From: a virus
Strand: one strand, 5' to 3'
IMG/VR virus record: IMGVR_UViG_3300037882_001547
Span: 1 to 42,867 of that record
DNA length: 42,867 bases
Translations under genes and position numbers: made by a program
The notes under the pieces: generated by a model
Databases searched by the model: none
Told to the model about the DNA's origin: nothing
Seen by the model: only the letters and a program-made list of their open reading frames with translations
Part shown: positions 1-42,867 of the stretch, in pieces
Layout of the letters: each line of letters starts with the position of its first letter
How positions within the stretch are numbered: position 1 is the stretch's first letter

Positions 1-24
1 CTGATGTCTGATGTCTGATGTCTG
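1..24. repeat. 7-bp tandem repeat CTGATGT
   Basis: Three perfect head-to-tail copies of CTGATGT followed by a partial copy (CTGA). It begins at the window edge, so the array may be longer outside. No function can be assigned. It lies upstream of the first promoter of the small-gene block. Confidence 0.7.
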
Positions 25-65
25 AAGGCGAGACGACGAGAGAAACCGAACCCCGAAAATACCGG

Positions 66-93
66 TTGACAGATACCGCGGAGTGACTAAGAT
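66..93 (+). promoter_or_regulatory. sigma70-type promoter
   Basis: TTGACA at 66-71, a 16-nt spacer, then TAAGAT at 88-93. The flanks (aaaataccgg before the -35 box, gagtgactaag around the -10 box) recur almost unchanged at 567-604, so this is a repeated promoter cassette. The -10 box overlaps the first ATG of the following ORF, so the mapping of box to start is uncertain. Confidence 0.6.
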
Positions 94-307
94 GAAAGCA
101 CAGAAGAGAGTCGCGAAACCGGCGGAGAAGCCCGCGACACCGCAGGGAACGTATAAGTACCAAGTGAGTTTGAAACACCCGATTACCCGAGCGGACTTTC
201 GGCAGCCGTTCACCACAACCAAAGATGAGGCTTACGCTTTCGCAGATGTAATCGCCTCGCGTAGTGTCGTCGTCGATATCAAACGCATTCGAACGGTGAG
301 CAAATGA
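92..307 (+). CDS. small basic hypothetical protein
   Basis: Encodes about 71 residues from ATG 92 (GTG 83 is in frame) to TGA. The N-terminus is rich in Lys, Ala and Pro; the rest is mixed alpha/beta-like with no known motif. The stop overlaps the ATG of the next gene (ATGA), which supports the frame. The start is doubtful because the predicted -10 box covers it; GTG at 163 is an alternative. I do not recognise the protein. Confidence 0.55.
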   Translation: MKAQKRVAKPAEKPATPQGTYKYQVSLKHPITRADFRQPFTTTKDEAYAFADVIASRSVVVDIKRIRTVSK

Positions 308-567
308 AAACTGTTAAATCCGTTGCCAAGGTTCACGCTACGTCGCATTTCACCGCGGAGGAAACTGATACGCACAATGACGTTGTCTCGGCGCTTAGCA
401 GGCGAGCGCAGGCACTTAGGGTTGTTGAGGAATGCCGGGCTAAGGTGGCGGAACTCAAGGTTAGCTTGACGGAAGCGGAGAAAGTCTTGTCGTGCGCCGA
501 GTTCAATTTTGAGCACGTAAGCGGCGGCGCTCGCGCCACGCTCGAACGCGCAGCTAGCAAGCTCTGA
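304..567 (+). CDS. hypothetical coiled-coil protein
   Basis: An 87-residue ORF overlapping the previous gene by 4 nt. The central part (about residues 30-65) is a charged, Ala/Glu/Leu-rich helix with heptad-like spacing, suggesting a coiled coil. Leucine is encoded by CTT, CTC and TTG, never TTA, and the gene ends in TGA. The next promoter cassette starts immediately after the stop. Function unknown. Confidence 0.6.
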   Translation: MKTVKSVAKVHATSHFTAEETDTHNDVVSALSRRAQALRVVEECRAKVAELKVSLTEAEKVLSCAEFNFEHVSGGARATLERAASKL

Positions 568-576
568 AAATACCGG

Positions 577-604
577 TTGACAAGTTCGAACGAGTGACTA
601 AGGT
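577..604 (+). promoter_or_regulatory. sigma70-type promoter, repeat of the 66-93 cassette
   Basis: TTGACA at 577-582, a 16-nt spacer, TAAGGT at 599-604. It shares aaaataccgg and gagtgactaag with the promoter at 66-93. Predicted transcription start is near 611, only a few nt before ATG 618. Confidence 0.65.
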
Positions 605-617
605 AAGGAAACAGAAA

Positions 618-755
618 ATGAAGCTCCCTGAAGTGAAGTGCCAGCTAGAAATCGCAAGTGAAATGATTCGCAAGGAGCGTGCCAAGCTTCCTATTACGTT
701 CGGTGAAATCATCCGCTCGAAAAATCAAAGCCTCACTGTCTCGCGTTCGAAGTTA
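618..755 (+). CDS. hypothetical protein, TTA-terminated
   Basis: Start ATG 618 is preceded by an AAGGAAA ribosome-binding-like stretch. The basic 45-residue product ends at TTA 753-755; read with the standard code it would gain ten residues and end at TAA 780-782. This is the first of many genes whose only in-frame TTA lies near the end. Function not recognised. Confidence 0.5.
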
Positions 756-808
756 GTGCTCACGTTTACCCAACCCGTCTAAGAACTCGTTTAAGAAAGA
801 AAAATCAA

Positions 809-1348
809 ATGACTACCTCGAATCTCATCAATGCCGCCTGTCTCGTGAATCTCGCTTTCCCCGTCAAGGCGCCCGGCGTTTACGGTTCGGTTATCGGCAC
901 CATGCTTAGCGAAGTTTCGGGAGAGGAGATGTATATCATCCACCTTCAAAATCCCGATGCGAACGGTAACTATGGTGTGTGCGTGCCGGACGGTGCGGTT
1001 TTCCTTCTGCCTGCTAAGCCCGGCAAGGGCGAACCTGGTAGCAAGCGCACGTATGATCGTTCTTTCGCGAATCTTAAGGACGCGCTTTCGGCTTGGACGT
1101 CTAGCACTCACAAGAATACCGGTGCGGATAAGAACGACTGGCGTTTCACCGTTATTGACGGCAGCCAGCTTAGTGAAGTGCAAAGCTTCTTGCATGAGCG
1201 AGGCTACACGACTAAGCTCGTTTCGAAAACTGAAATGCGCGTGAATCCTCCCGTTGCGGTTGCAGTCAGCGTCGAGAACGATAAGGCTCCCACGAATACT
1301 GCGCCCGCCGAAACCGATTCGGAAGAAACGGCGGCGGATTCTGAGTTA
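809..1348 (+). CDS. hypothetical protein, TTA-terminated
   Basis: A 179-residue protein from ATG 809, preceded by AAGAAAG. It is mixed alpha/beta with an acidic, low-complexity C-terminus rich in Thr, Ala and Glu from about residue 155. The standard code would run it on to 1687 as one 292-residue protein. At 1346-1348 an in-frame TTA is followed after three bases by an ATG whose context (TACCAATGAA) is copied at the next gene start, 1684. I therefore read two genes. Function unknown. Confidence 0.6.
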
Positions 1349-1351
1349 CCA

Positions 1352-1687
1352 ATGAATATCCGTCAAGAGGAGTCGCGAGATATTCTCGAAGACTTGGCAG
1401 AAGAGAACGGTTGGGAGATCGATACACATAGCTCGTCCGATACGGTGTATGTCGAACTTGTAGACGACGACGTTACGATCGAAGTGGTTATCGTCGAAAG
1501 CGGCGACATCGAAGCAAAGAACGAGGATGAGCACGACGACGACCAGCAAGATTTCTATCTTGAAGTTGTAGAGAAGTTCTACGAAATCCTTGAAGGCTTA
1601 GGTTTCGAATCGACGCGCTCGAATCCGTTCGGGTGCGTACTCCGCAATCTAACCCAATCGCAAAACCAACTGAGATACTACCAATGA
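1352..1687 (+). CDS. acidic hypothetical protein
   Basis: A 111-residue, strongly acidic protein (many Asp and Glu, including a DEHDDD run) beginning 3 nt after the TTA that ends the preceding gene and ending at TGA overlapping the next ATG. In the standard code it is the C-terminal half of a fused 292-residue ORF. The abrupt change in composition at the junction favours two polypeptides. It could be a DNA mimic or a chaperone-like small protein, but nothing specific supports either. Confidence 0.5.
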   Translation: MNIRQEESRDILEDLAEENGWEIDTHSSSDTVYVELVDDDVTIEVVIVESGDIEAKNEDEHDDDQQDFYLEVVEKFYEILEGLGFESTRSNPFGCVLRNLTQSQNQLRYYQ

Positions 1688-2716: not shown

Positions 2717-2734
2717 ACAAGTGAAACACTGATT

Positions 2735-2778
2735 TGGCACGTGATTTGCATTAGGCAGATTCCGTGCCATTTTTATTT
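2735..2778 (+). terminator. Rho-independent terminator
   Basis: TGGCACG (2735-2741) pairs with CGTGCCA (2763-2769). An inner arm, ATTTGC with GCAGAT, extends the stem. The hairpin is followed by TTTTTATTT. It lies 18 nt after the TAG of the zinc-ribbon-like gene and just ahead of the next promoter. Confidence 0.85.
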
Positions 2779-2799
2779 CAACCGAAGGCAAAATACCGT

Positions 2800-3214: not shown

Positions 3215-3238
3215 CAACCGAATCGGAGCGATTATGCT
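3211..3238 (+). promoter_or_regulatory. sigma70-type promoter
   Basis: TTGACA at 3211-3216, a 16-nt spacer with the recurrent GAATCGG word, TATGCT at 3233-3238. ATG 3249 lies 10 nt after the -10 box, giving a leader of only a few bases. Confidence 0.7.
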
Positions 3239-3248
3239 TCCTAGTGAA

Positions 3249-3518
3249 ATGCACCCGAAGTTTCGAGCGTATGCGCGTCAGTACCGAAACTATCCGACCA
3301 CTGAAGTCGAGCCTGCAAATCACACCTTGCGTGATTACCTCGACTATGATACGGAAAGCTTGCTCGAATATCGGAATGAAGAGAACGAGTATCCAGGGAC
3401 TTACCATGACAACGTAATCGCGGTTGTTGACACAATTCTAGCGGCACGGGAATGTCGAGCGGCGGGTAAGCCGAACGAAAGTGCCGAATCCGACGTTTTC
3501 AACATGTTGTTTGGTTTA
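3249..3518 (+). CDS. hypothetical protein, TTA-terminated
   Basis: An 89-residue ORF from ATG 3249, chosen because the earlier in-frame ATG at 3234 lies inside the -10 box. It is Tyr/Glu/Arg-rich with no known domain. The sole TTA (3516-3518) runs directly into AGGAG, the ribosome-binding site of the next gene. Standard reading would extend it over the next gene start to 3584 through an odd Cys-rich tail. Confidence 0.55.
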
Positions 3519-5427: not shown

Positions 5428-5428
5428 T

Positions 5429-6853: not shown

Positions 6854-6875
6854 AGAATTGTTACCTATTTGAGGG

Positions 6876-7464
6876 GTATAAGGTATGTAAAAAATTATAG
6901 TTGACTATTCAGTCAAGTATTCGAGTCTTCACGTTTCTTTGAAACTTGTGAACCCTAACATACCTAACATACCCCCTTCGTTCGGCTAAGCAACACCCTA
7001 CCCTAAGACACCCCAACGGTGAGGCGCTAAGGTACCTAGGAAGCCGTTCTACCTAGGGGTAGCTACCCCCGTAGCTCCCTACCATGCTAGCCTGGTAATG
7101 AGGCGCCTAGAGGCATACTACACTATGCGAAGCATACCCACACAGTACGTAAGCATCCCACGTAGTGGGTGCGTATACAACATTGTGTATATGTACCTAC
7201 CTACTAGGGTATAGTATGATGTATACCCACTACACCTACATAGTACGTATGTGTACTAGTACGTAGTACACGTAGACTAACCACTTACTAAAGCCACCTG
7301 AGCACACTACGTGTGCGAACGTAGTATCACAGCGCTAGCTGTGTCAGTAAAGAGTACAGGTAGGTATGATGTAGTATACAGGGTATATAGTAGTTACTAT
7401 GTATACATGTAGTACAATGTATTTGTTAGATACGTTGTATATGTAAGGAGTATAAGGTATGTAA
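6876..7464. repeat. 15-bp direct repeat pair GTATAAGGTATGTAA
   Basis: Identical copies at 6876-6890 and 7450-7464. Within the same interval CCTAACATACCC (6963-6974) and its exact complement GGGTATGTTAGG (7490-7501) form a 12-bp inverted pair just outside the second copy. Together they bracket about 600 bp of the non-coding region. Confidence 0.65.
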
Positions 7465-7566
7465 TGTAAGTTAGATATGTGAGTATGTTGGGTATGTTAG
7501 GAATCAATGTTAGGAAAAGTAAGTAGGAGTCCCGGAAATGCTAAATTCAGGACTACTGTGTACTTC

Positions 7567-7635
7567 CGTTATTATTATTACTAATTATACACATTGAGTG
7601 ACTATAATTACTTAACATTCGTTATTATTATTACT
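7567..7635. repeat. 16-bp AT-rich direct repeat
   Basis: CGTTATTATTATTACT occurs at 7567-7582 and again at 7620-7635, 53 bp apart, in the most AT-rich stretch of the region. It would be easily unwound and could form part of an origin. Confidence 0.6.
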
Positions 7636-7789
7636 CTAGTATACCTATTAGCTTTTTATACCGTCTTAGGCTTCATTTTTATTATTACGTAGGATCCTTA
7701 TACGTGAGTTCTATCCTACACCCTACTACCTACTTTTACTAGGTATTACGTAACTGTATTAATAGCGTTGTTCATGACAGTAACTTCAC

Positions 7790-7818
7790 TTGACATAGAT
7801 GTGCGATCGGTACATAAT
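7790..7818 (+). promoter_or_regulatory. promoter inside the non-coding region
   Basis: TTGACA at 7790-7795, a 17-nt spacer, CATAAT at 7813-7818. No gene starts until 8020, so the first about 195 nt of its transcript would be untranslated. It could drive a small RNA or a long leader. Confidence 0.5.
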
Positions 7819-7884
7819 TACATAAGTTAAGTACGAGACAGAACGTAGTGATGTCGATGTACGCAAACTATGTAATTATTATGT
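7812..7884. repeat. inverted repeat flanking a 44-nt loop
   Basis: ACATAATTACATA (7812-7824) and TATGTAATTATTATGT (7869-7884) are inverted copies apart from a small insertion. The left arm overlaps the -10 box of the promoter at 7790-7818, so the repeat could be an operator pair or a hairpin at the start of a transcript. Confidence 0.55.
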
Positions 7885-7985
7885 AGTCTTACTCTGCCTC
7901 TCAGTGAATCTTATATTTGATTTTACTGGTGTTAGAGTGCGAACAACGATTACTCAGTGAGCGCTAGCGAACACCTTACTAAGGG

Positions 7986-8013
7986 TTGACTTGGTTTAGT
8001 TAGTGGTTATGAT
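7986..8013 (+). promoter_or_regulatory. leaderless promoter
   Basis: TTGACT at 7986-7991, a 16-nt spacer, TATGAT at 8008-8013, then exactly 6 nt to ATG 8020. Transcription should start at or next to the A of the start codon. Confidence 0.75.
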
Positions 8014-8019
8014 TTGTAG

Positions 8020-9915: not shown

Positions 9916-10082
9916 AAACCCTTAGACTACAATTCGACGTAATTTCAGAAGACGGAAAGATTCTGGTGATCCAAAGAAGTCTACGCTCCGTAGACGACGT
10001 ATCGCAGAAATCTTCTATTTTCCGAAGTGAGAAAGCCGCCGCGGATTTTGTGTATACTTGTTTGATGGGATCTTGTGAATGA
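9912..10082 (+). CDS. small hypothetical protein (56 aa)
   Basis: ATG 9912 in an ATGA overlap to TGA overlapping ATG 10079, so the frame is fixed by both neighbours. The 56 residues have a beta-hairpin-like N-terminal part and a helical SEKAAADFVY segment. Not recognised. Confidence 0.6.
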   Translation: MKTLRLQFDVISEDGKILVIQRSLRSVDDVSQKSSIFRSEKAAADFVYTCLMGSCE

Positions 10083-10519
10083 TCCTAATTATAACCGGAG
10101 GCAGAGATTTTGAAGATACTGAATTCGCTTATAAAGTACTGGACGAAATAAATAGCAAAACCAAAGTACGTTTGCTAATTCACGGGGGTTGCGAAGTTTG
10201 GGATCGTGATTGCAAAGCCTATCGTAAGGCAGGTGCCGATTGGATCGGTAATGATTGGGCAGCCGAGAGAAAGATACGGATCATTGTGCGATCTGGCATT
10301 CCGTATTTTAAGAAGTACGGCAAAGTAGGATTTCTCATGCGAAACGAATTGATGGCAGAATGTGCGCTTAGTATTCAACAAGGATACAAGTTCGCGCATA
10401 GTCTGATTACGATTCCTATCAAATGCGTCGCGTTTAAAGGTGGTAGCGGCACTAAGCATATGTGCGAAGCAGCCGCGACACGTGGAATTGAAGTAATGAG
10501 AACGTGGGAATACAAATGA
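10079..10519 (+). CDS. SLOG-superfamily (DUF2493-like) protein
   Basis: 146 residues. It starts MILIITGGRDF, with the GGRDF nucleotide-binding loop, followed by LLIHGG and a later AFKGGSGTKHM loop. These are the hallmarks of the YAcAr/DUF2493 branch of the SLOG Rossmann-like fold, which binds nucleotides or derivatives. In phages such proteins are common but their substrates are mostly unknown. A WAAER segment and LMRNELMAE helix match the usual layout, with a small insertion. Translationally coupled on both sides. Confidence 0.8.
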   Translation: MILIITGGRDFEDTEFAYKVLDEINSKTKVRLLIHGGCEVWDRDCKAYRKAGADWIGNDWAAERKIRIIVRSGIPYFKKYGKVGFLMRNELMAECALSIQQGYKFAHSLITIPIKCVAFKGGSGTKHMCEAAATRGIEVMRTWEYK

Positions 10520-10764: not shown

Positions 10765-11925
10765 GTGCCGCTAAGAATTGATGAGAGTGATGTAACGCTA
10801 TCTATTGACGGATATCAAATCGGTTACGTTCATAGGTATGAAGTAGAGTACGGTATTTTCACTCAACCCGGAACGTTTACGATAAGCGTGGGTTGGAGTC
10901 AAAGTGCTGGTAAGCTAATCAAATCAATCAAGCCGTATATGCCGTTTAAGCTGAACGTGGGTGGCAAACCCGCGTTTTCCGGCAGGCTTGATTCTATTGT
11001 TGTTCGCGAAGGCGGAGAAGGAACCGAAGTAGTTCTCACCGGACGCGATAACATTGGAGATTTGTTTCGCTACAAAATTGATCGAGATATACATTTCAGC
11101 AAATCGACTTACGTTGGTTTGCTGAATGACGTACTCGAGTATATAAACATTTCTCCTAGGGTAGTTCTAGGTGACGCTACCGAAATCGCGAATAAGCGGT
11201 TGGGAAAGCCTGTTCGCAGATACGGTATTGCGTTGGATCCAGATACAGAGCAATTCCTAATTAAGGAGTCTGTATCTACGATCAATTCTAACATTTCAGC
11301 GAAACTAGGAGATACCTTCTACAGTTTCCTGAAAGCCTATTTCGATCGTTCTAATCTGTTTCTATGGAGTGGAACGGATAATGAATTCATTTTGTCACGT
11401 CCAAACACGAAACAAGATCCAGTTTGTCAACTGCTTCGTGGAAGGGACTTGGATTCACTTAAGAACCGCGCTAACTGCAAACTTGTAGAATACAAGAACG
11501 ACATCTCCGATAGGCACGCATTCATTCATACCAATGTGCGCGTTGGAACTACAAAGGCAGGTAGAACATCAATGATAGGATCCGTTACGGATGAGGAAGT
11601 TCTAGCGCTTGGATTGCGTAATTTCCGATCTGTACGTGATAAGAAAACAAACAACGCTAAGCAAGCCGAAGATATGGGTAAGCGTATTCTTGCGGAAGAA
11701 CGTCGCAAGAGTAATCGCCTGATTTACGTCACGGCAGGACATCGCACGAAAAGCACAGGCGGAGCAGAGATAGTTTACACGCCAGATACTATAGTTCGAA
11801 TTCTAGACGAAGAGCTAGGAATTGATGCGCCGTATTACCTAGAGACAGTTAAACACAAACGTGATATAGGCTCTGGCACAACGTCACAGCTAACGTTTGT
11901 TAAACCAGAACACATGGTATTCTGA
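10765..11925 (+). CDS. baseplate hub protein (Mu gp44 / P2 gpD-like)
   Basis: 386 residues from GTG 10765. The opening layout (DGYQIGYVHRYEVEYG, then F.I.VGWS and a GRLDSIVV strand, then LTGRDNIGDLF near residue 92) is that of the tail hub proteins of the Mu gp44/P2 gpD family, which form the trimeric hub holding the central spike. The C-terminus ends in a typical strand pair. Leucine codons (over 25) never use TTA; the stop is TGA. Unusually it lies upstream of the chaperones and tape measure and is separated from the other baseplate genes at 28.9-32 kb. Confidence 0.8.
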   Translation: MPLRIDESDVTLSIDGYQIGYVHRYEVEYGIFTQPGTFTISVGWSQSAGKLIKSIKPYMPFKLNVGGKPAFSGRLDSIVVREGGEGTEVVLTGRDNIGDLFRYKIDRDIHFSKSTYVGLLNDVLEYINISPRVVLGDATEIANKRLGKPVRRYGIALDPDTEQFLIKESVSTINSNISAKLGDTFYSFLKAYFDRSNLFLWSGTDNEFILSRPNTKQDPVCQLLRGRDLDSLKNRANCKLVEYKNDISDRHAFIHTNVRVGTTKAGRTSMIGSVTDEEVLALGLRNFRSVRDKKTNNAKQAEDMGKRILAEERRKSNRLIYVTAGHRTKSTGGAEIVYTPDTIVRILDEELGIDAPYYLETVKHKRDIGSGTTSQLTFVKPEHMVF

Positions 11926-18323: not shown

Positions 18324-18707
18324 ATGGCAACAGTCGTTAGATCAAGCGTAGTTTATATTGACGGGTTGAAAGTACGTTTTGCCAAAAGCAATACGTACGA
18401 TCTAAACACAAACAACCAAGCACAAGTAGGTGTTGAAGGATATGTAGGGCACTCTCGTGGTGCAAACATCTCGAAACTAGATTTCGATGAAGTTGTTCCT
18501 ACTTCCAGATTGCAATCAGGTGTTTTGAAGAAGTACATTCTTCCAGGCAAAGATTGTACAGTTACTTATGCTATGGGTGGAGAAAACCTAATGTTCGAGG
18601 GCTGCTTCGAACAGGCGACATTTACCGCGGAGTCTATGAACGGCACGCTTAACGGTAAATTCACTATTGTAGGAGGAAAACCCACAGTCTTGTCGCTAAG
18701 AGCCTTA
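18324..18707 (+). CDS. tail tube protein (Mu gpM-like), TTA-terminated
   Basis: 127 residues, starting 9 nt after the sheath stop. The pattern SSVVYIDGLKVRFAK, VEGYVGHSRG, and the strand pair NGTLNGKFTIVGG fits the small Mu gpM-type tube protein that polymerises inside the sheath. Two TTAs (18705 and 18714) occur only at the end; the standard code would add five residues to TGA 18720-18722. The transcript then meets a terminator. Confidence 0.82.
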
Positions 18708-18760: not shown

Positions 18761-18761
18761 G

Positions 18762-18835
18762 TGCTGGTACAAGGATTCGAACCCTGATCTACCTCATTAC
18801 AAAAGAGGAATAATTGCCATTTATAATATACCAGC
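18762..18835 (-). tRNA. tRNA-Thr (UGU), somewhat degenerate
   Basis: A 74-nt cloverleaf on the minus strand. Acceptor GCTGGTA pairs with TACCAGC, with A as discriminator. The T-arm CAGGG-TTCGAAT-CCTTG is canonical. The anticodon arm CCTC...GAGG carries loop TTTGTAA, giving anticodon UGU, but the innermost pair is T-T. The D-stem is weak (one T-T mismatch), although TGG in the D-loop is present. CCA is not encoded. It is not a reader of TTA or TAA. It lies beside the terminator at the end of the head operon. Confidence 0.7.
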
Positions 18836-21203: not shown

Positions 21204-22313
21204 TCAGAATGCTGCTACAGCGTTCGCGATTCTGGCACCACCGAAGGTAGAAACAAGTTTCAAGTCTTCGTAGGTGAATAGCATCGTTCTATAGCCACCC
21301 AACATGCCGCGGTGATCAACCGGAATCGTTCTAACAAAGAATCCATCGCGTTGCGAGAATCCACGTAGAGGCGAATCACCAGTACCATTCCAACGGAAGC
21401 GGTAAGCAGTGGTAGAATCTTGTCCCGTAGGAGTACCTTCAGGGTAGTGAATACCAACCGCGGTGTTATTCCAGATGTAAGGGTGAGTTCCACCAGAACC
21501 TAGGCGCTTAGCCTTGGCAATCTTAATCGGAGCAACTCCGAACAAACCGCTAAAGATTGATTGAACCTGAGTCGTTGAAGGCAACGCAGGAGTACCGCTC
21601 TTGTTGATAATGTACTTTTGCACTTCAGGGTGCAAAATGAAGGCGTTAAACATCGTTGGATTCATGATCCATTGGTTAACGTCTAGCATTACGGTTTCTT
21701 GCAAACCTAGCAAATCTCTGATTGGATTTGAGTTAGGTCCTGGTTCTCCTGTAGTAAGATTCAACCAAGCGGTATCCGCAGTAAGCGTAAGCGTTTGCGA
21801 AGCGTCGTATGATGCAGCACCTTGTAGAAGAGTTTGAGTACGAATCTCGCTAGCAAGATTCATAATCGTCATTATTCTATTCATGTGCGCAGCCTGTAGA
21901 TCAAGCTGGGCATCGGCATTAGCAATCGCTTCGGTGTGAAGGAAGAATGCAGCCGCGTAAGGCGTTACTTGGTAACGGTTCGAGCTGAAGCGAGGGGTAA
22001 ATTCCGCAGGCTCGCCTTGCGCGCTCATATTTATACGCAAAGCTTCTTCGTACGAATCTTCCTTATCCCATTCGTAGTATTTGTCTGATTGCTTCGAAAC
22101 ATTCAGCGTGGGAACCGCTTCGTTCCAAATAAAGCCGCTTTGCTTAAAGCCAAACGCGATATTTGCAAGAAATTCTTCTCCGTGAACGTCTCTAGGAGCC
22201 ATATCAAGGTTAATAAGCTCGTTTCCAAGCTTCAAACCTTGAGGTGTCCATTCAGCGTTTTGATAAGTGTCATTGCCGGATTCGTCCGACACAAGCATTT
22301 TAAAAGTAGCCAT
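21204..22313 (-). CDS. major capsid protein
   Basis: 369 residues with a GGATAA ribosome-binding site. It follows a protease-scaffold gene and a DUF2190-like gene and precedes connector genes, the standard place for the shell protein. The sequence is strand-rich with P-domain-like helices (AAHMNRIMTIMNLASEIR) and an end (YRTMLFTYEDLKLVSTFGGARIAN split over two strands) typical of HK97-fold coat proteins of Mu-type and related phages. No TTA codon in 369; it ends in TGA and is followed by a hairpin. Confidence 0.85.
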   Translation of the reverse strand: MATFKMLVSDESGNDTYQNAEWTPQGLKLGNELINLDMAPRDVHGEEFLANIAFGFKQSGFIWNEAVPTLNVSKQSDKYYEWDKEDSYEEALRINMSAQGEPAEFTPRFSSNRYQVTPYAAAFFLHTEAIANADAQLDLQAAHMNRIMTIMNLASEIRTQTLLQGAASYDASQTLTLTADTAWLNLTTGEPGPNSNPIRDLLGLQETVMLDVNQWIMNPTMFNAFILHPEVQKYIINKSGTPALPSTTQVQSIFSGLFGVAPIKIAKAKRLGSGGTHPYIWNNTAVGIHYPEGTPTGQDSTTAYRFRWNGTGDSPLRGFSQRDGFFVRTIPVDHRGMLGGYRTMLFTYEDLKLVSTFGGARIANAVAAF

Positions 22314-22325: not shown

Positions 22326-22751
22326 TAACGCGTGAGCGCCTCTACCGAATAGTACCAGAATGTCTTCATCGGCACCAGCGGTAGCGTTCAAAGAAGATCC
22401 AACGTAAGCATCTCCATCAGCAGCAAGAATAATCTTGCCGTTTTGCCCTGCAACCGAAGACGCCTTAACGTAAACACCCTTAGCAACCGCGGCGCCTGAT
22501 TTACAGGGCACGCGCATACCAGGACGAACAGTTACGAAACCCCAAGTCTTAGAGGGAATTACTTGGGTAGTCAAACCAAGAGGAACCAAACCGGTTTCCG
22601 CGTCAGTAGGCAATCTTACCCAAGTGTCGAAAAGTGCTCCGCCACCAGCCGTATCTAGAACGACTGCTCTACCAGCAGGAATATCAGTTACTGCGTTGTT
22701 GAAAACGTTAAGATACGGCGATTCTGCCGGTTCAAGTCCTAGTTGTGCCAT
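22326..22751 (-). CDS. DUF2190-like capsid decoration protein, TTA-terminated
   Basis: 141 residues with a GAGAGGT site. The alternating Gly/Ala/Val strands (DIPAGRAVVLDTAGGG, GAAVAKGVYVKASS, GADEDILVLFGRG) are typical of DUF2190 and decoration proteins that coat or stabilise the head. It begins in the TTATG overlap with the protease gene. It ends at TTA 22328-22326 followed by GGA-TAA, where TTAGGATAA also forms the capsid ribosome-binding site. Confidence 0.7.
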
Positions 22752-23254
22752 AATTTGTTACCTCTCGCAGCCTTAGCCGCCGCAATAGCCGCAGAAGTGC
22801 TATCCATGCCTTCCTTCATAAACTTCGTGTGCAATTCAGCTTGCGAAAGTCTAACTTCACCTTCAGCCGCAGGACGACTTTCATTAGAAAGCGACGTAGT
22901 AAGATACGCAGGACGGCTTACCGCAGGCTTAGTAGCAGGCTTAGCCGCTTCAGGAGCCTTTGCAGGGAACAAACTTCTAAAGCTGTCAGCGTTAGCAAGT
23001 CTAAGCGTCTTCAAGTGAACCTTATCAGCATCCGTCAACTTACGAGAATCCTTGTAAGTATTGAATACCATTTCAACTTCGCCGTCAACGGCTTCTTTTT
23101 CAAGCTTTTCGTACTCTCTAATCTTATTGTCAAGCTTAAGTTGAACTTCCGAAAGAGCAGTCTTATGCTCCAAAGTCAACTCAGCGATTTTAAGATCCTT
23201 TTCACGAACCTTATTCTTAAGATCAGCTACTTCGGTTTCTAGTTCTTTAGTCAT
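22751..23254 (-). CDS. possible internal scaffold product (Mu gpZ-like)
   Basis: Met190 of the protease ORF (ATG 23254) follows an AAGAAAG stretch and begins exactly at the coiled-coil domain (MTKELETEVADL). In Mu and lambda-type heads the scaffold is made from an internal start of the protease gene, giving here about 167 residues. Internal initiation is inferred from position and a weak ribosome-binding site only. Confidence 0.45.
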
Positions 23255-23821
23255 GTTCGAATCTTTCTTAGTTTTATCAGGTTCAGTTTCAGGTGTCAAC
23301 GTGTTTTCTACTTCTCGCTCATCATTCGATGCGCGAACAGACGGCATATCATAAAGATGAGGATCATCAACAAGCGATACTTCTTTAACGCGCATTCCTG
23401 CTCGTTTTCCAGTAGTTCTATCTAGCGAGTCAAGGAGCAATCCAGGCGAGAACCATTGATATTTTTCCTCTAGAACGTAGGTGCGTGCAGGTTCCAAGAA
23501 ATCACACAATCCGTAAAGACATCCGTCTGCACGAACTTGCATATCGGTAATATATCCTTGTGCAGGCGAACCGACGCGTGGATCGTAACTTGGGTGTTCC
23601 GAAGAATGGTGATCGAATTTAATCGGAACCTTTCCCGTAGAACGCAATTTGAAGTTCTTTACTGCGGCGTGGAACATCTCCGTAGTAAGCTCGAAATCAC
23701 CAGCAGCGTGGGATTTACTAACGATCGGCTTAGCGATCATATTCCACTTAGGTGATTTATCCTCCTTATTACCGAGCTCAATCGGCGTGAAGGTGGCGTA
23801 ATTAACGAGTAGCTTAGTCAT
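22751..23821 (-). CDS. prohead protease-scaffold fusion (Mu gpI-like), TTA-terminated
   Basis: 356 residues. The N-terminal half (VPIKFDHHSSEHP, VGSPAQGYITDMQ, YQWFSPGLLLDS, VKEVSLVDDPHL) is a Mu gpI-type serine protease that matures the prohead. The C-terminal half is a highly charged coiled coil (DLKNKVREKDLKIAEL) typical of scaffold. It ends at TTA 22753-22751 overlapping the next ATG (TTATGG); the standard code adds three residues. No other TTA occurs in frame. Confidence 0.82.
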
Positions 23822-30819: not shown

Positions 30820-31320
30820 ATGTCGTATACCCCTAAACTACAGCAAAACCCAAGTGTAAAACCTACCTACGTTGATTTTGGCGACGGAGCCAAAGAGAAC
30901 GATCCTATCTATACTCCTACTGCGCAAATGCCCAAAGCGGAAGAGTATAATGAAATGGGAGGATCCCTAGAAGGCTTGCTGATCATGTCTGATCTAGCCT
31001 CTATTCAAATGACGAATACCGCTGGAACTTATTCCAAGGTTAAAGGTAAGGCTATTAACAAAAACTTCGTAATAGGAGATTTGAACAATCTTGCAGATGG
31101 TTCGGTTACTATTACCAAGAACGGTGTGGGGGATTTGACGTTTCAATTTGACGTAGGAATCATACCTACTATTGAGTTTCCGCCTACTGTGAGCTTTAAT
31201 CATGTTACTTCCCACCAACGATCTTATAATTCCACTGTCGTAGATGGAAGAACCGTTCGTGTAATGCTCTATAATGCAGGCTCTGCCGCAGAGGCGTTGT
31301 TTACCTTGTACGTGAAATTA
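30820..31320 (+). CDS. tail protein of unknown role, TTA-terminated
   Basis: 166 residues from ATG 30820. Strand-rich (VTITKNGVGDLTFQFDVG, TVRVMLYNAG) and ending LFTLYVK. It lies between gp47- and gp48-like genes, so a baseplate or fibre-attachment protein is likely. It ends at TTA 31318-31320, overlapping ATG of the next gene (TTATGC). The standard code adds 55 Arg/Ser/Cys-rich residues that merely read the next gene in another frame. Confidence 0.55.
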
Positions 31321-32276
31321 TGCCACTTTTTTCTGCATTCGCGCCATTCGGCATGTTCTCGTTTAGTGCGCAGCCTTCGAACGCACAACGTATTTACAAC
31401 GCTATGCGAGCGTCTCAAGGCGAAGAGCAAGGCGCGTTTAGAGAGTTTGGCTACCAGGGCGCTAAGCTTTACGCAACGGCAATGATGTTGGGTAGAGTAG
31501 TTGAGCTATACTCTAGAATAACGGAACAACATTCACCTAAAACCGTTACATTCCTACTCCCCGATAAAGAGAAGGAATATGGATTGACTCCCGACGATTC
31601 TAGAACGGAACAAGAGAGAAGGAATAGACTTGGATCGAGATATCTAGCAGGAATCGGCTCGTCACAAGATGATCTAGAACAAGGATTGATTTCAATTCTA
31701 GGCAGCCATTTCCTAGAAATAGTTCCACCAAGCGATCCTAATTTCTCAGATCTAGTAGATAATTTCCCTACTACTCCGCCTAGCTACGCTAACTACCAGG
31801 ATTCAACTAGAGCAGGTAAATGGCTACTAGCTAACCACGATTGGGGATCAAACGCAGGCGCCTTGTCGGCAACCCTCATATGTGGCGAGACTCCCGTTGT
31901 TGGAGAAGAGTACGTATTTGGCTCTCACCTGGAAACCATAGTTCAAAAATGCACGCTTACCTCGGTTGTAGCAACGTCGGATCCTAAGGTGTTTCTACTT
32001 AATTTTGACGGCGTTACTAAGCCTGTTGAAAAAGGACAGGGATTTACTTCTAGTTCTTACCCAATTTGGAGTACAGGTAGACGTAGATTTCTTATTGGTA
32101 TAGCCGAAGAAGCTACAAGAAATCAAAACGAAATTACCGATACGCATAACTACTTGGAAAGAAGTGTCAGAGCGGTTACTTGTTGGAGTTTTGCTACGGA
32201 TCAATTGTTTGGATTTAGAATTGGTGGCGTAGGTGCCACCGATCCTGGATTGCTTGGTTTTACACTTATTCAGTGA
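31320..32276 (+). CDS. gp48/DUF2313-like tail protein
   Basis: 318 residues starting in a TTATG overlap. FLLPDKEKEYGLTPDD followed by QERRNRLGSRYLA resembles the LLP...WE.EFGL....ERR core of Mu gp48/YmfQ proteins, which connect baseplate and fibres. N- and C-terminal parts are longer than usual. No TTA; it ends in TGA. Confidence 0.65.
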   Translation: MPLFSAFAPFGMFSFSAQPSNAQRIYNAMRASQGEEQGAFREFGYQGAKLYATAMMLGRVVELYSRITEQHSPKTVTFLLPDKEKEYGLTPDDSRTEQERRNRLGSRYLAGIGSSQDDLEQGLISILGSHFLEIVPPSDPNFSDLVDNFPTTPPSYANYQDSTRAGKWLLANHDWGSNAGALSATLICGETPVVGEEYVFGSHLETIVQKCTLTSVVATSDPKVFLLNFDGVTKPVEKGQGFTSSSYPIWSTGRRRFLIGIAEEATRNQNEITDTHNYLERSVRAVTCWSFATDQLFGFRIGGVGATDPGLLGFTLIQ

Positions 32277-33792: not shown

Positions 33793-34125
33793 ATGTTTTC
33801 TGCTGCAACGGCTTGGATTCTTCTTAATAAGAAAATAATCCTATCGTCGGTAATTATACCGTTTGTAGGATTCACTATTTCTAAGTTTCCTGATCCTAGA
33901 GCCTACAAAGGTAAGTGGTATTATCCTTACTACTACGCAACGTTTATGATAGTTACTCATTATAGCGCAGGCGATTGGACAGAATGGGGAGGGAAGCTAA
34001 AGGTTCCATTCTCGCAATACCCGCGTCTAAAAGACGTTCCTGAACCTGAAGTGCTTACATTTGTAATGCCTGAGTTCCACCCAATTCGTCAATCTGAAGA
34101 GCAAACTGTGAGACTGGTAAAATGA
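33793..34125 (+). CDS. membrane protein, possible holin
   Basis: 110 residues from ATG 33793. Two hydrophobic stretches near the N-terminus (residues 4-12 and 16-30: IILSSVIIPFVGFTI) are followed by an aromatic, soluble tail. It sits with a coiled-coil membrane protein, a lipoprotein and two cell-wall hydrolases, so a lysis role is likely. ATGA overlap with the next gene. Confidence 0.5.
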   Translation: MFSAATAWILLNKKIILSSVIIPFVGFTISKFPDPRAYKGKWYYPYYYATFMIVTHYSAGDWTEWGGKLKVPFSQYPRLKDVPEPEVLTFVMPEFHPIRQSEEQTVRLVK

Positions 34126-34562
34126 GACGATACCTATTCCTAATTCCACTAGTAGCTGCATGTAATCTACTTCCTTCAGATACAAAGGATGAATACATTT
34201 CAATGCGTATCCTCAACAACGAATTGGGATCTGCGCTTACTAAGTACAAAACAAACGTAGTTGAATACGCTCAGAAGGAAGTAAACGCGCAAGCAGAGGC
34301 TAAATGCAAACCAATGACGGCTGAATGTCGTTCTGGTGTGATTGCGCAAGTTGCCAGAAAATACGGAGATAGAGAACGCACTTACAACATGTGCGTTGAA
34401 ATTCAAAATGAAGCGAAAGTACTGCTTTCAAAAGCAGATGCAGTTTGCAAAATTGACAATAGCTCTGTTTGTGATGAAGCTAAACTGAATGCGCTTGTCA
34501 AAGATGCAGCAGTTAAGAATGCGTTCGAAGTTGTCTCTCCGTGGATCGTGCAAGGTAAATTA
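34122..34562 (+). CDS. lipoprotein in the lysis cassette, TTA-terminated
   Basis: 146 residues with a clear lipoprotein signal: MRRYLFLIPLVAAC, Cys14 in an LVAAC lipobox. The mature part is helical with four more Cys (K-C-K, E-C-R, V-C-K, V-C-D), probably paired. It could act as a spanin-like outer-membrane component, which would imply a diderm host; unproven. It ends at TTA 34560-34562 overlapping the next ATG (TTATGA). Confidence 0.6.
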
Positions 34563-34789
34563 TGAACAAAGCTGAACTACTAAAAACGTTTGAACAAGGT
34601 TTGCACCAAGGAATTCAAATTGTTCTTTCTCAAGCTCTACCAATGGTTCCCGCTCAATTGCGAGCCACTGCTTCTATGTATATTGCGGATTTGGTTACGC
34701 GGGTGCTAGATTCAGGCGGCTACGAAGCACTTAAAACCGCACCTTTGGTTACTGCACCTAAGATGGACTTGAAGAAAGAACTAAAATGA
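34562..34789 (+). CDS. small hypothetical protein of the lysis block
   Basis: 75 residues beginning in a TTATG overlap and ending in ATGA with the next gene. Amphipathic helices (TFEQGLHQGIQIVLSQ, ASMYIADLVTRVL) with no true membrane span. Such small proteins between holin and endolysin genes are common; function not inferable. Confidence 0.5.
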   Translation: MNKAELLKTFEQGLHQGIQIVLSQALPMVPAQLRATASMYIADLVTRVLDSGGYEALKTAPLVTAPKMDLKKELK

Positions 34790-35361
34790 GCGGTACGCCT
34801 ATTCGGGTAATTCCTGCTAAGCGCACTGAAATGCGCATTGACGACATGATGATTATCGGCGCTGCCGCATACACAGACGTATTCAAGCGTCAGGGTATGG
34901 TTTACGAGCTCGCAACCGCTGCATCTCAGTGGACTACCGAATGCGGGATTAAACCAGGCACGTCTATTTACAAGGATGGCGGAAAAGTAATTTACCACAT
35001 TTGGAATAACAATTGGGGTAATATTACGTGCAGAGCAGATGCAGACATGGATAAGCACGTTTTCACGACAAAGGAACGCATTAAGAAAGGCGTAGTTGAG
35101 TCTGAAGACGTTTGGAAAGAGCTTAAGATGTATTTCAAGGCTTACAGTAATCCACGCGAAGGCGCTATTGATTACTGGAAGAAAATGCAAAAGTTCTTTC
35201 CTAAGTCCTTGAAGTCCTTTACTTCAGGTGATATGAATGAAGTAGCAGTAACGCTTTCTAAGGAAGGCTATTACACCGATCTAGTTTCACGCTATAAGAA
35301 GAACCTAGATTATTATTTTCCACGATACTTTAATTTGTTGACGGTAGGAAAAGAGGCATTA
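34786..35361 (+). CDS. glucosaminidase-type cell-wall hydrolase, TTA-terminated
   Basis: 191 residues. ATAASQWTTECGI, the HIWNNNWGNITC segment, FKAYSNPREGAIDYWKKM and SKEGYYTDLVSRYKKNL follow the layout of FlgJ/GH73-like glucosaminidases (x-ES-G, NNxGNI, F.AY.s.eeg..DY, GYaTDp.Y..kl). It should cut the glycan chain as endolysin. It ends at TTA 35359-35361 overlapping ATG of the next gene (TTATGT). Confidence is moderate because the catalytic Glu context (TTECG) is divergent. Confidence 0.65.
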
Positions 35362-36536: not shown

Positions 36537-36974
36537 ATGGCTGGATCGGCAACAACTTTCGCTAAGGATCAATTTCTTAGCTTCGTTCGCGGCTCAACGC
36601 TTACACCTCCCGCTAATTGGTTCGTAGCGTTGTTTACTTCCGATCCAGGAATCGGCGGCTCAACCGCAGGTGAAGTTAGCACGTCAGGTACTGGTTATGC
36701 GAGAAAGCAAATAGCAGCGTCTGTAGGCGCTTGGACGTCTCCGGCTACCGTAGCGGGAAACGGCAGAAACGTAGATAACGTAGCACGTCAATCTATCGGC
36801 ACGCTTACTACTACTTGGGGAACGTTCACCCATTGGGGTTTGATGGATGCTTCAACGAGCGGTAATATGTGGTTTCGAGGCGATATCAACGGCGGCACAG
36901 GATTCAACCCCGTCGTAGGAACCGAAGTAGCAATTGACGTAGGAACTATGGATATCAGCTTTACTGAAACGTTA
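36537..36974 (+). CDS. adhesin-associated tail protein, TTA-terminated
   Basis: 145 residues. FLSFVRGSTLTPPANWFVAL followed by LFTSDPG and GTGYARKQI matches a widespread small phage protein found beside tail fibres and receptor-binding proteins (pattern FRG..f.pp...yvaLfT..P). It ends with the strands MWFRGDINGG and VGTMDISFTET. TTA 36972-36974 overlaps the next ATG (TTATGT). The standard code would add 27 hydrophobic residues. Confidence 0.6.
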
Positions 36975-37780
36975 TGTCCATTACAACCTTCGATCAGTAC
37001 GTTGATGCTAAATTCAATCGTGCTAACGCTTATATTAGCCAGTTTAGCGTACTAAACCAAATTACCGCTAACGCAGGATACTATTCATACTGGCAAAAGA
37101 ATCTAGCGCCTTCTAACGGTGTTTCGCCTTCAGGTGTTACAGGCGACGCGCTTACGAATGCTACAGCAGGAGCGATTCCACTACCTACGATTCCAGGCGG
37201 AAATACACTTTACCTAGATTGCGCTTCGCTTTCGGCTACTACAGCATTGAGCGGAACAATTTCTGATCGATTCGTACATACGAACGGATTGAACGGAACC
37301 CTAACGTCGACACAAGCCGTTAACACAGTCGCCTTGCCAGCTAGAGCTACGGGCGGCGTTGGAGTAATGATTGCTCTAGAAGCCTATATCGCTACAGGGG
37401 CAACGCCAGTAACTTTCACTGTATCTTATACCAATTCGGGCGGAACGTCAGGTAGAGTGGGGTTGGTTACAGGAACGCTAAATCTCGCCGGCAAAATGTT
37501 GCCTGTGCAGCTAGACGCTAATGACGTTGGTGTACAATCTGTTCAGTCAGTCACGCAAAGCGCTACTTCTGGAACGGCGGGTAACTACGGTGTTGTCCTT
37601 TATAAGCCTTTGGGTTGGATTAACGCCGGATCGTCGCCTGGATCTTCGTCTTTCAATTCAGCTTTTGACACGCTATTTGCACCTGTTGATCTAACCTCCT
37701 GTATTTCACTGTACGTGCATAATGCGGCTGGCGTAGCCGTAAACTCATTTCAATTTGGCATGGAGTTTATCAACGGGTTA
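36974..37780 (+). CDS. putative receptor-binding/fibre protein 1, TTA-terminated
   Basis: 268 residues, Gly/Ser/Thr-rich beta structure. It shares with the next gene NATAGA(I/L)PLP, the strand SYTN..G.SGR, and (Q/R)S(V/I)QSVT near the C-terminus, so the two are tandem paralogues. Probably capsule- or receptor-contacting fibre tips, by composition and by position after the 36537 protein. It starts in a TTATG overlap and ends in another (TTATGA, TTA 37778-37780). Confidence 0.6.
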
Positions 37781-39014: not shown

Positions 39015-39310
39015 AATACCGTCTTGGAGACACGGCGCCGGATTTGGAGTGGGAGCTAAATCAGGACTTGACAGGAGCCGATGTAACGGCTACTTATACT
39101 AAGCCTAACGGCGAGGTGACGGCTTCTGTCTGTACAGTAATAGTGGAAAACCCCGGCACCGATCAGGTGAAATCGAGAATTCAATTCTCTTGGTTCGAGG
39201 ATGATCTAAATGTGCTAGGAATTGGTAAGATTCAATTGCGTTGGACTTCGGGACTGGAAACTGGAACAATTCATCCGGTAAACGGTTGGAATATAACGGT
39301 GGTACCATGA
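39011..39310 (+). CDS. small beta-rich tail protein
   Basis: 99 residues. It starts YRLGDTAPDLEWEL and continues DLTGADVTATYTKPNGE, a pattern common in small phage proteins resembling BppU-type baseplate N-terminal domains (DTAP...L...DLTGa.v....kPdG). Likely a structural Ig-like module near fibres. ATGA overlap with the metzincin gene. Confidence 0.55.
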   Translation: MKYRLGDTAPDLEWELNQDLTGADVTATYTKPNGEVTASVCTVIVENPGTDQVKSRIQFSWFEDDLNVLGIGKIQLRWTSGLETGTIHPVNGWNITVVP

Positions 39311-39852
39311 AACGTTTTCTATTCGTTGCTTTGTTTCTCGGTTGCGCTCAACCTGCGTACGACAATTACGATGAAATGTGTTCGGATCCTTACGGGAAAG
39401 ATAGTGTTAGTAGTTCGATTGGATTTCACTACCCGCAAGCATTTTCAATCGCACTTTCACCCAAATTCAATGAAATTGACGTTGCAGAAGCACAAAAAGG
39501 CTGCAACGCTTGGGAGCGTGCAACCAATGGGAAAATCAGGTGCTTTGCGTATCTAGATTCAGATATGAAACCAGATCACGATTCAGTGCTGGTTCATAAG
39601 TGCGCGAATACCAAGTACAGTAATGCAGACGTAGCCACGTATCCTAGTAAATACTCGCTTAGTGAGATTGTGTTTAAGGAAAACGTTCCTGCACGTGCTA
39701 AGACCTTTACTCACGAAATCGGGCACGTGCTAGGATTGTTTGACTATTATCCGTCCGAAGGTGAAGCTACGGCAATGGTTCCTGTTTACAGTCGCATGGC
39801 TGATTCACCGACTGAGATTGACGTTCAACGACTTGACAGGATTTGGCAGTAG
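39307..39852 (+). CDS. lipoprotein metzincin-type metallopeptidase
   Basis: 181 residues. MKRFLFVALFLGC is a lipoprotein signal with Cys13 in a lipobox. The zinc motif HEIGHVLGLFD (His136, Glu137, His140, Asp146) is the extended HExxHxxGxxD signature, and a Met-turn-like YSRMADSP follows before a DVQRLDRIW helix, as in matrixin-like metzincins. A membrane-anchored secreted protease is unusual for a phage. It may act on host surface proteins during lysis, exclusion or spread. It overlaps the upstream gene by ATGA and ends in TAG. Confidence 0.75.
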   Translation: MKRFLFVALFLGCAQPAYDNYDEMCSDPYGKDSVSSSIGFHYPQAFSIALSPKFNEIDVAEAQKGCNAWERATNGKIRCFAYLDSDMKPDHDSVLVHKCANTKYSNADVATYPSKYSLSEIVFKENVPARAKTFTHEIGHVLGLFDYYPSEGEATAMVPVYSRMADSPTEIDVQRLDRIWQ

Positions 39853-40877: not shown

Positions 40878-41461
40878 AAAAAGTTCTCCGGATTGGTAAT
40901 TGCGCCAAACTTACGGAATGTAGTTCGAAATTTTGAAATATAAAGTAAATTATACATGCTTTTTTGCTTTAGCATTGTCTGCGCATCATTCTTAGGAGGC
41001 AAGTAAATCAACGCATTACCCTGTGCCGGTTGATTAGCCGTCTGCATGGTGTCGGGGTTTATAAACTTAAGGCGTTTTCGGAAAATCAGGAACGGGTAGT
41101 ACGTCGGCGGCGCTACGTCTTGCAAAGTCTGAAGCTGGTTAAGACTAAATAGCAAAAACATAGCCTGCGTGATCGTTCCGTCTGCGTACTCCTTAAGCGT
41201 TCGTTCCCAAAATCTTTTGGGTAGTTCTCCGCGCTTATCACCTGGCGGATTACACCAAACATTACCAAACCACGCATTTCTGTCTGCTAGTCCGTCCTGT
41301 GATTCGGTGTAATAGCGACAAGCATTGACAATTTTATTAGCTGAAGCTTCGGAAGCAGGATCCAGGCTAATGGTTCCCATTACCTCACGAGCCGATTCAA
41401 TCACGTCGCTTGGAGTTACCCAACGACACGTATTACTCATGTGTAGTGCGTCAGGCGTCAT
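40877..41461 (-). CDS. phage Dam-type N6-adenine methyltransferase
   Basis: 194 residues. TCRWVTPSDVI, SLDPAS (33-37) and NVWCNPPG (68-74) are the phage Dam pattern; the catalytic DPPY-type motif is NPPG here. Methylation probably protects the phage DNA. TTA 40879-40877 overlaps the MazG ATG; the standard code adds 67 residues through MazG. Important oddity: another in-frame TTA at 40948-40946 precedes a family-like ending (KFRTTFRKFGAI), so it would have to be read as Leu or the gene is shorter. Confidence 0.75.
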
Positions 41462-41640
41462 AGCGCGCTCTTTCTATGTTGCGCGTAGCTTTCCAATGCT
41501 CTAACAATCGCTTGATCAACATCTTCGTCTTCGTCAATGAAAATATGAAATCTTCCTCGAGGGGTTGAGTCTGAATGAATTCCGTTTTCTTCAATTTCTA
41601 TAGTCGAAATCGCTACCGTGATCTTTATACACTCAACCAT
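41458..41640 (-). CDS. small acidic hypothetical protein
   Basis: 60 residues from ATG 41640 with AGGTGG upstream. Strand-rich start (VECIKITVAISTIEIEE), an acidic IDEDEDVDQAI turn and a helical end. It overlaps the Dam gene by ATGA and begins in a TTATGG overlap with the upstream small ORF. Unknown function. Confidence 0.55.
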   Translation of the reverse strand: MVECIKITVAISTIEIEENGIHSDSTPRGRFHIFIDEDEDVDQAIVRALESYAQHRKSAL

Positions 41641-41744
41641 AAAAACCACCTATATCTGCACGAGGGTGCAATACTCCATTGAATAAGGCAGTATACTGAA
41701 TACATAACTAGAACGGCTACTATAAGCTTTTCAGCGGTTGCCAA
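41640..41744 (-). CDS. 34-residue membrane peptide, TTA-terminated
   Basis: TTG 41744 with a GGAG site. The product has one hydrophobic helix (AEKLIVAVLVMYSVYCLIQW) and a short basic tail, ending at TTA 41642-41640, which overlaps the next ATG. This gene is only visible when TTA is accepted as a stop, since the standard frame runs on through the next gene. Confidence 0.4.
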
Positions 41745-41835
41745 ATTCACTCCGTTCGTAATACTTGTTGATTCTATAGGCACCCCAAACAACGCTACCA
41801 ATTATCATAGCGCAGCACAGAAAGTCATAAATCAT
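41731..41835 (-). CDS. 34-residue membrane peptide
   Basis: ATG 41835 in an ATGA overlap with the upstream gene, ending in TGA 41733-41731. Residues 3-20 (YDFLCCAMIIGSVVWGAY) are hydrophobic, followed by a basic/aromatic tail. A pair of tiny membrane proteins with the 41640 ORF. Confidence 0.45.
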   Translation of the reverse strand: MIYDFLCCAMIIGSVVWGAYRINKYYERSEFGNR

Positions 41836-42032
41836 TTGTACACCGAAATCTTATTCAATTCTTCGTAATCTGGATGTTCTATACTAACAGTATTCCTGCA
41901 ATAACACTTATAGCACACCCAAAATAGGGACTTTGTATAAATCTGTGCACCCTTACCATCACAATACCGCTCATGTACGAGATTAGTATTTTCGGTTTCA
42001 TTGTCGTGTGAATAAAAGCATCTAATCTTCAT
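41832..42032 (-). CDS. Cys-rich small protein
   Basis: 66 residues from ATG 42032, with its start inside the end of the upstream gene. Four of five Cys sit in pairs (VCYKCYCRN), suggesting a metal site. It ends in TGA. Not recognised. Confidence 0.5.
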   Translation of the reverse strand: MKIRCFYSHDNETENTNLVHERYCDGKGAQIYTKSLFWVCYKCYCRNTVSIEHPDYEELNKISVYK

Positions 42033-42174
42033 CGTCGTAATAATTGTAGTTTTGCGAACATTCGTCGTATAGATCATCCATTTCGGCGCATATAGCGCAG
42101 TATGGATTATGTTCGCACCAAACCGTGGTGCATTCACATATTTTCGTCAGGGAAGGTTGCTCGTTCAAGTTCAT
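42022..42174 (-). CDS. Cys-rich acidic small protein
   Basis: 50 residues from ATG 42174 with an AGGA site. Cys residues CEC, WCEH and YCAIC may bind metal; the end is acidic and Tyr-rich (NYNYYDDED). It overlaps the next gene start. It ends in TAG. Unknown function. Confidence 0.45.
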   Translation of the reverse strand: MNLNEQPSLTKICECTTVWCEHNPYCAICAEMDDLYDECSQNYNYYDDED

Positions 42175-42307
42175 TAATCCTATTCTGTAGTCTTGTAATT
42201 TTGTTGTTTAGCCGGTAAACAAGCTCTCTTGTAGCTTAGTCGTCAATCATGTCAATCAATTCGTGATTATCTAGCAAAGAATAATCTTCGTCTTCGTCGT
42301 AATACAT
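42134..42307 (-). CDS. small ORF, possibly read through an in-frame TAA
   Basis: ATG 42307 starts in a TTATG overlap with the HNH gene. The first 23 codons (MYYDEDEDYSLLDNHELIDM...) end at TAA 42238-42236. The same frame continues for 33 protein-like codons with perfect heptads (ELVYRLNNKITRLQNRINEL) to TGA 42136-42134, but has no normal start codon of its own. Either TAA is decoded here, giving 57 residues, or only the 23-residue peptide is made. Confidence 0.35.
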
Positions 42308-42816
42308 AATGCTGCCTTAGCGTCGCGCCAATTAGTGGAGATTCCAAGATATTCACCCAACCTTTTTAGTTGCTCTTCAATAGGTACCGGAGATTCAAGC
42401 TCAAGTCTACCAACCGTAGTGTTGCAATTTCGGCAAAGAAGCTTTCTAATTGCACCGGTTTTGTGACAATGATCAACAGATAGCCTCGCGGGCTCACCTT
42501 TAAATGTTGCAGTTTCGGGCTTCTCACAAATATAGCAAACACCGTTTTGTCGTTTTAGCATTTCCTCGTATTCTTCCGAGGTTATACCGTACTTGTTCTT
42601 AACCCACCAATCCCTGTTATATTTTCTGAGGGCTTCCGATTTTATCCTCGGTACCTTCTTCTTATTTTCTACGATTGCTTTTTGTCTACAGTCGCGACAA
42701 GTTTTTCGTAGATTTCCGTTAGGCGCCCGCTCGAAATATTCTGCTATATGAGGCAAGCGCCTATCACAGCAAATGGAGTGTTTCTTTACTCCATGGCATT
42801 TCATTATGTTAGTCAT
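42307..42816 (-). CDS. EndoVII-like HNH endonuclease, TTA-terminated
   Basis: 169 residues from ATG 42816. N-terminal zinc pair (TCRDC), KYGITSEEYEEMLKRQ, CYIC, and LSVDHCHKTGAIRKLLCRNCN as in endonuclease VII-type HNH proteins. The end ISTNWRDAKAA is repeated in the partial gene upstream. It stops at TTA 42309-42307 (TTATGT overlap); the standard code adds 12 residues. Confidence 0.82.
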
Positions 42817-42867
42817 GCGGCTTTGGCATCGCGCCAATTAGTAGCTATACCTAGCGATCCACCAATA
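42813..42867 (-). CDS. partial HNH endonuclease paralogue (3' end)
   Basis: The last codons of a gene that enters from beyond the window end. It reads ...GIATNWRDAKAA then TGA 42815-42813, which overlaps ATG 42816. The WRDAKAA ending copies that of the neighbouring HNH gene, so a third EndoVII-like gene is likely in tandem. Confidence 0.55.
   Translation of the reverse strand, partial: IGGSLGIATNWRDAKAA

Follow-up and report, generated by a model that had tools for sequence, protein, structure and literature searches.

A tailed phage whose genes appear to end in the leucine codon UUA suggests a sense-to-stop code in its putative bacterial host

In the tailed phage represented by the IMG/VR record IMGVR_UViG_3300037882_001547 (linear, 42,867 bases, GC content 45%; hereinafter the window, as the whole of it was analyzed), the codon UUA almost certainly ends the translation of genes. 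To our knowledge, no bacterium or phage described to date reads TTA as anything but leucine. The action of TTA as a termination codon, which an earlier note on this DNA had proposed, is supported by sequence-derived evidence of five kinds, namely codon usage, gene parsing, the geometry of gene junctions, the loss of coding signal and the alignment to the stops of a relative. Beyond the phage, we posit that UUA has likely become a dedicated stop in a bacterial lineage not represented in current genome collections, and that the phages of this lineage share the code; a sense-to-stop change would thereby be seen for the first time in a free cellular genome.

TTA is confined to the ends of genes

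The TTA triplet is common in the window, with 748 and 764 copies on the two strands, yet it is missing in frame. The genes for the terminase large subunit (TerL), portal, protease, sheath, tail tube, tape measure protein and baseplate J (gp47-like) each have one terminal TTA and no internal one, while those for the capsid, LysM/DNA-circ protein, hub and gp48 have none, confirming what the earlier note had said of all of these save the protease and tube. Across the clear genes, TTA constitutes 2 of 482 leucine codons, and none once the starts are refined. In naive standard-code open reading frames (ORFs) of at least 120 codons, it accounts for 33 of 1,410 codons within the last 30 positions as compared to 13 of 9,201 in the rest, a 16-fold terminal enrichment (Fisher p=1.5e-19; the next codon in this test reaches p=0.003). 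The leftover "internal" TTAs lie upstream of the true start, in false ORFs on the opposite strand or at the start of the next gene. One candidate for an internal TTA, the same-frame ORF 809–1687, more plausibly represents two genes that TTA CCA ATG separates.

We scored complete gene parses under the standard code with one extra stop, using each of the 61 sense codons and giving the tested codon a neutral score in either parse. Only TTA improves the parse (+160 nats); the next best codon scores -80 and all others worse. Under the TTA-stop parse, 66 genes end in TTA (31), TGA (27), TAA (5) and TAG (3); a second training set yields 33 TTA-terminated genes of 68, and both counts are close to the earlier estimate of about 35 of some 75. 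The parse holds 11,728 sense codons with no TTA, a zero that follows from its construction, where position-specific base composition would predict 136. On average, codons ahead of a TTA have a coding score of +0.23 and those beyond it one of -0.03, a fall matching that at canonical stops (+0.16 to -0.05). Gene junctions include eight of the form TTATG with a TTA stop and 11 of the form ATGA with a TGA stop, and TTA ends occur in the early and late regions alike. In the standard code these genes would indeed acquire tails, as previously noted, but their range is 0–89 residues rather than 1–67, plus one of 112 that represents a second gene in the same frame.

TGA is clearly a stop in the window. 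TAA and TAG are not firmly placed as stops since they are so rare at gene ends, and removing either from the set of stops shifts the parse score little. Their use as sense codons was considered and dropped, the change in the parse being small.

The positions of TTA match the stops of a relative

Using a degenerate TerL motif, we found a relative, IMGVR_UViG_3300003323_001142 (L193/G001), of 101 kb and 64% GC, which is collinear with the window at identities of up to 40% and has standard stops (TGA 79, TAA 21, TAG 18). TTA occurs at none of the window's 4,239 positions in this alignment, where leucine codons of the other five kinds number 335. TTG, used 273 times, is aligned to Leu (32 of 98 positions) and TCA to Ser (14 of 55); of the remaining sense codons, those with good sampling mostly pair with their standard residues, and AGT, ATA, CAG, TCC, TGT and TGC are rare or of low identity and uninformative. 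As TTG and TCA remain sense codons, the code would be identical to NCBI table 23, with UUG, UCA and the other sense codons keeping their standard meaning.

Aligning conserved proteins to the ends of their homologues, a check suggested in the earlier note, gives exact agreement at two genes and agreement to within a few residues at the sheath, tube and protease. In the 166-aa (amino acid) tail gene the window's TTA falls exactly at the relative's TGA (...SAAEALFTLYVK-stop vs ...SAADLSFNVRIY-stop), and under the standard code the gene would run on for 55 codons within gp48, with LCHFFLHSRHSAC... in the tail past position 31320. In baseplate J, the TTA is at the relative's TAG (...NDLAFYGI-stop vs ...NFLAAFPQ-stop), and the standard code would add 14 residues. 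In the sheath (38–40% identity), the relative's TAA is 6 aa past the last aligned residue and the window's TTA 4 aa; in the tube, the relative's TAA is 8 aa past the alignment, the window's TTA 10 aa and its standard stop 15. The portal shows 36% identity over 421 aa.

A standard code with strong avoidance of TTA, tolerated only at C-termini, is a highly improbable alternative. Such avoidance does exist at 51% GC: three related phage contigs with a Jenst-like capsid (L173, L174 and L175; 51–52% GC) have few or no internal TTAs and are cases of extreme avoidance without reassignment. However, these contigs have standard stops, and parsing them with TTA as a stop brings no gain, whereas in the window the coding signal ends at TTA, the standard-code tails cross the next gene and the relative stops where the window has TTA, with exact stop-to-TTA alignments that count against avoidance.

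The lengths of homologues also count for UUA as a stop, as they fit the TTA ends. The homologues retrieved for the Dam methyltransferase span 160–203 aa, the closest three having 167–170 aa, as compared to 171 aa up to the TTA and 261 aa in the standard code; the gp80-like protein has 145 aa up to its TTA, 143 aa in its Xanthomonas phage X1 homologue and 172 aa in the standard code. Dam was weighed as a counterexample and dropped since its homology ends at residue 163, where the profile match stops whether or not the tail is included (136.3, 136.7 and 135.5 bits for versions of 171, 194 and 261 aa). The 39-aa standard-code tail of the neck1 gene adds no phrog_5 score (48.3 vs 47.4 bits).

A probable host code with a proposed RF2-type release factor

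The simplest reading places the code in the host, because TTA ends early genes as well and the phage record yielded no release-factor PCRF domain and no tRNA-Leu, its sole tRNA being tRNA-Thr(UGU). The host, in turn, is probably a bacterium, given the sigma-70-like promoters and some Shine–Dalgarno motifs, whose cores are enriched at starts (13 of 66 vs 7.6% of other ATGs). We regard a host-wide UUA-stop code served by an RF2-type factor as quite likely: UUA would be a dedicated translation stop in the host, to whose code the phage has adapted; the host would lack tRNA-Leu(UAA); and its RF2-type release factor, relaxed in its recognition of the second position, would read UUA beside UGA and UAA. 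Stop usage is dominated by UUA and UGA, which differ in the middle base only, and TAA and TAG together are scarcer in the window than in the relative (8 of 66 vs 39 of 118, p=0.0015). This dominance and the scarcity of UAR fit, without proving, a relaxed reading of base 2 by RF2.

UUA might instead be unassigned, with the ribosomes of a host devoid of the tRNA stalling on it and a rescue system (of the tmRNA, ArfA or ArfB type) or weak release ending the protein. This would be consistent with the lack of internal TTAs and of a tRNA-Leu in the phage; however, TTA is the most used stop and ends high-copy virion proteins such as the sheath, which rescue would tag or slow, and the TTATG junctions resemble efficient termination coupled to re-initiation, making an unassigned codon unlikely. 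Reprogramming by the phage, which would remove the host tRNA-Leu(UAA) and bring its own release activity so that the code is confined to the phage, could draw on its many early proteins without known function, but the early genes, translated before takeover, already have TTA ends and no release factor family (PCRF domain) is seen in the window; we consider it very improbable. We give least credence to an organelle-infecting or organelle-derived element using NCBI table 23: its stops (TTA, TAA, TAG and TGA, the rest standard) are identical to those deduced here, but the window has the entire structural module of a tailed phage, collinear with that of a 101 kb phage, a GC of 45%, sigma-70-like promoters and Shine–Dalgarno enrichment. 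We know of no organelle phage.

Several observations weigh against a host-wide UUA stop read by RF2. The RF2 model does not account for the scarcity of TAA, which RF2 also reads. The evidence is a single metagenomic record, from whose sequence we infer the code of an entire host. Dam is slightly ambiguous, as its frame holds another TTA 23 codons downstream, at a TTATG junction with the following gene; the earlier of the two may thus reflect a recent truncation or leaky reading, a matter that the profiles do not settle. A second phage with a TTA-stop code was not found: scans of IMG/VR with single proteins (TerL, capsid, sheath) recovered no close relative, profile scans recovered relatives at 24–36%, none with the TTA-stop pattern, and a search with the phage-specific promoter motif gave no matches. 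Two candidates positive in one statistic (L165 and L070) were ruled out by internal TTAs. Finally, S11 ending in TTA (...RRV-TTA) occurs in none of 84,980 species in GTDB r220. With TRR in place of TTA, the motif was recovered from 147 of 150 genomes in one phylum, showing the screen to be sensitive there; thus, the host is probably outside GTDB r220, or its S11 has another stop.

A comparable GTDB screen for L36 (...QRQG-TTA; sensitivity 39 of 150) gave one match, in a Lachnoclostridium metagenome-assembled genome (MAG). We rejected it as a TTA-stop host, as it has normal internal TTAs, an S11 ending in TAA and also a normal L36 copy; the match probably arose by chance or in assembly, or reflects contamination or a variant copy of the gene.

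Gene content of the window

The window belongs to a Caudoviricetes phage of the Mu-like-terminase type, with a structural module comprising TerL, portal, protease, major capsid protein, sheath, tape measure protein, J and gp48 along with neck and hub genes (Table 1). The tape measure protein was assigned by position, length and partial homology to a 763-aa gene of the relative.

Table 1. Features of the window, and the L36 match from GTDB
Feature	Coordinates	Strand	Remarks
IMGVR_UViG_3300037882_001547	1–42,867		Virus record from metagenome, Mu-like-terminase myophage
Sigma-70-type promoter-like site	66..93	+	TTGACA-16-TAAGAT; repeated at 577–604
Early gene	902..1348	+	TTA end; TTA CCA ATG, then same-frame gene
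Second early gene	1352–1600	+	Same frame as 902..1348; TTA end
Early gene	3234..3518	+	TTA end, then GGAG and ATG of next gene (TTAGGAGTAACTACATG)
Baseplate hub	10765..11925	+	phrog_177; TGA stop, 0 TTA
Tape measure protein, 704 aa	13521..15635	+	TTA end; 0 TTA in 704 codons
Tail sheath, 508 aa	16788..18314	+	phrog_165, E=6.6e-61; TTA end 18312–18314
Tail-tube-position gene	18324..18707	+	TTA end; collinear homologue in relative
tRNA-Thr(UGU)	18761..18835	-	Between tail tube gene and convergent gene
Neck1/tail-completion gene, 115 aa	20106..20453	-	phrog_5, residues 25–109; TTA end, TTATG junction
Major capsid protein	21204..22313	-	phrog_1005; TGA stop, 0 TTA
Scaffold-like gene	22326..22751	-	phrog_673 over residues 20–139 of 141; TTA end
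Head maturation protease	22751..23821	-	phrog_328; TTA end overlaps next ATG (TTATG)
Portal, 502 aa	24385..25893	-	phrog_113; TTA end
Terminase large subunit, 493 aa	25914..27395	-	phrog_2/5909; TTA end, zero internal TTA
Baseplate J/gp47-like, 490 aa	29345..30817	+	PF04865; TTA end 30815–30817
Tail gene, 166 aa	30820..31320	+	TTA end 31318–31320, overlaps gp48 ATG as TTATG
Mu gp48-like gene	31320..32276	+	PF10076, phrog_203; TGA stop, 0 TTA
TTA-ended gene	34122..34562	+	TTATG junction
TTA-ended gene	34786..35361	+	TTATG junction
gp80-like gene, 145 aa	36537..36974	+	PF23140; TTA end, TTATG junction
Fibre-region gene	36974..37780	+	TTA end, TTATG junction at 37778
Dam methyltransferase, 171 aa	40946..41461	-	PF05869; TTA end; standard code 261 aa
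L36 in Lachnoclostridium MAG (L187)	1337–1363	-	...HKQRQG-TTA-TTTGTAAGC

A stretch of about 1.2 kb (6855–8019) that separates the small early genes from the late ones has no called genes and is rich in TACGTA/GTAC and short repeats (GTTATTATTATTACT). A SLOG-family protein (YAcAr, YspA-related) is encoded at 10079–10519, between the early genes and the hub. The fibre region closes with a gene (39307–39852) for a short protein that weakly matches Peptidase_M10 (matrixin) and bears the zinc-binding motif HEIGHVLG. An imperfect direct repeat of 49 nt (42309–42357 and 42815–42863) lies at and next to the endonuclease VII gene, at the right end of the record; it may belong to a second endonuclease VII-type gene that is cut off.

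Relationship to known genetic codes

The earlier note knew UUA as a stop only from Thraustochytrium mitochondria. Other organelles use it too, but in the open-access literature searched we found no sense-to-stop change outside organelles, in bacteria or phages, as that note had also held. UUA and UCA are stops in peDinoflagellate plastids, described as the first sense-to-stop case outside mitochondria, and UUA/UUG in Marsupiomonadales mitochondria; RF2-type factors with Ser204 replaced (labyrinthulean mtRF2a, peDinoflagellate pRF2) are proposed to read UUA (PMC12574857). UUR stops in Pycnococcus are cited by PMC6821328. So far, reports of such reassignments have come solely from organelles, whose gene sets are tiny; in a phage that carries dozens of genes, the change would imply the rewriting of a whole bacterial proteome, with one leucine codon ending proteins, and the proposed Ser204 mechanism would become testable in a bacterial factor.

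Codetta is the tool behind the largest screen of prokaryotic codes. It is stated to be unable to detect sense-to-stop changes (PMC9825746), and in the eLife screen new stop codons were beyond detection, stop-like codons being given as "?" (PMC8629427). As both are blind to new stops, prokaryotic cases would have been missed. Gene finders mask such codes by adding short tails, and the codes may hence be overlooked; the S11-TTA screen and the terminal-enrichment test offer cheap ways of looking for them.

Stop-to-sense recoded phages (Crassvirales and others; PMC11210395) likewise have a non-standard code, but one of the opposite direction, making sense codons from stops where the present phage gains a stop from a sense codon. 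The mitochondria of Marsupiomonadales, Pycnococcus and Pseudoscourfieldia (UUA and UUG stops, mtRF1a variants) share the reassignment of Leu to stop, whereas UUG is a normal leucine codon in this phage. In the peDinoflagellate plastid code (UUA and UCA stops, pRF2 variants), UUA similarly ends about half of the genes, with no cognate tRNA and an RF2-type factor, as may also hold for the phage's host; it differs in its plastid setting and in its UCA stop, UCA being sense here. NCBI code 23 (Thraustochytrium/Labyrinthulea mitochondria, mtRF2a Ser204 variants) has UUA as a stop beside UAA, UAG and UGA, retains UUG and UCA as sense codons and has a proposed RF2-type factor (PMC12574857), but is mitochondrial, as opposed to a tailed phage and its putative bacterial host. 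The code as deduced here matches table 23; its setting, a phage and presumably a bacterium, is new.

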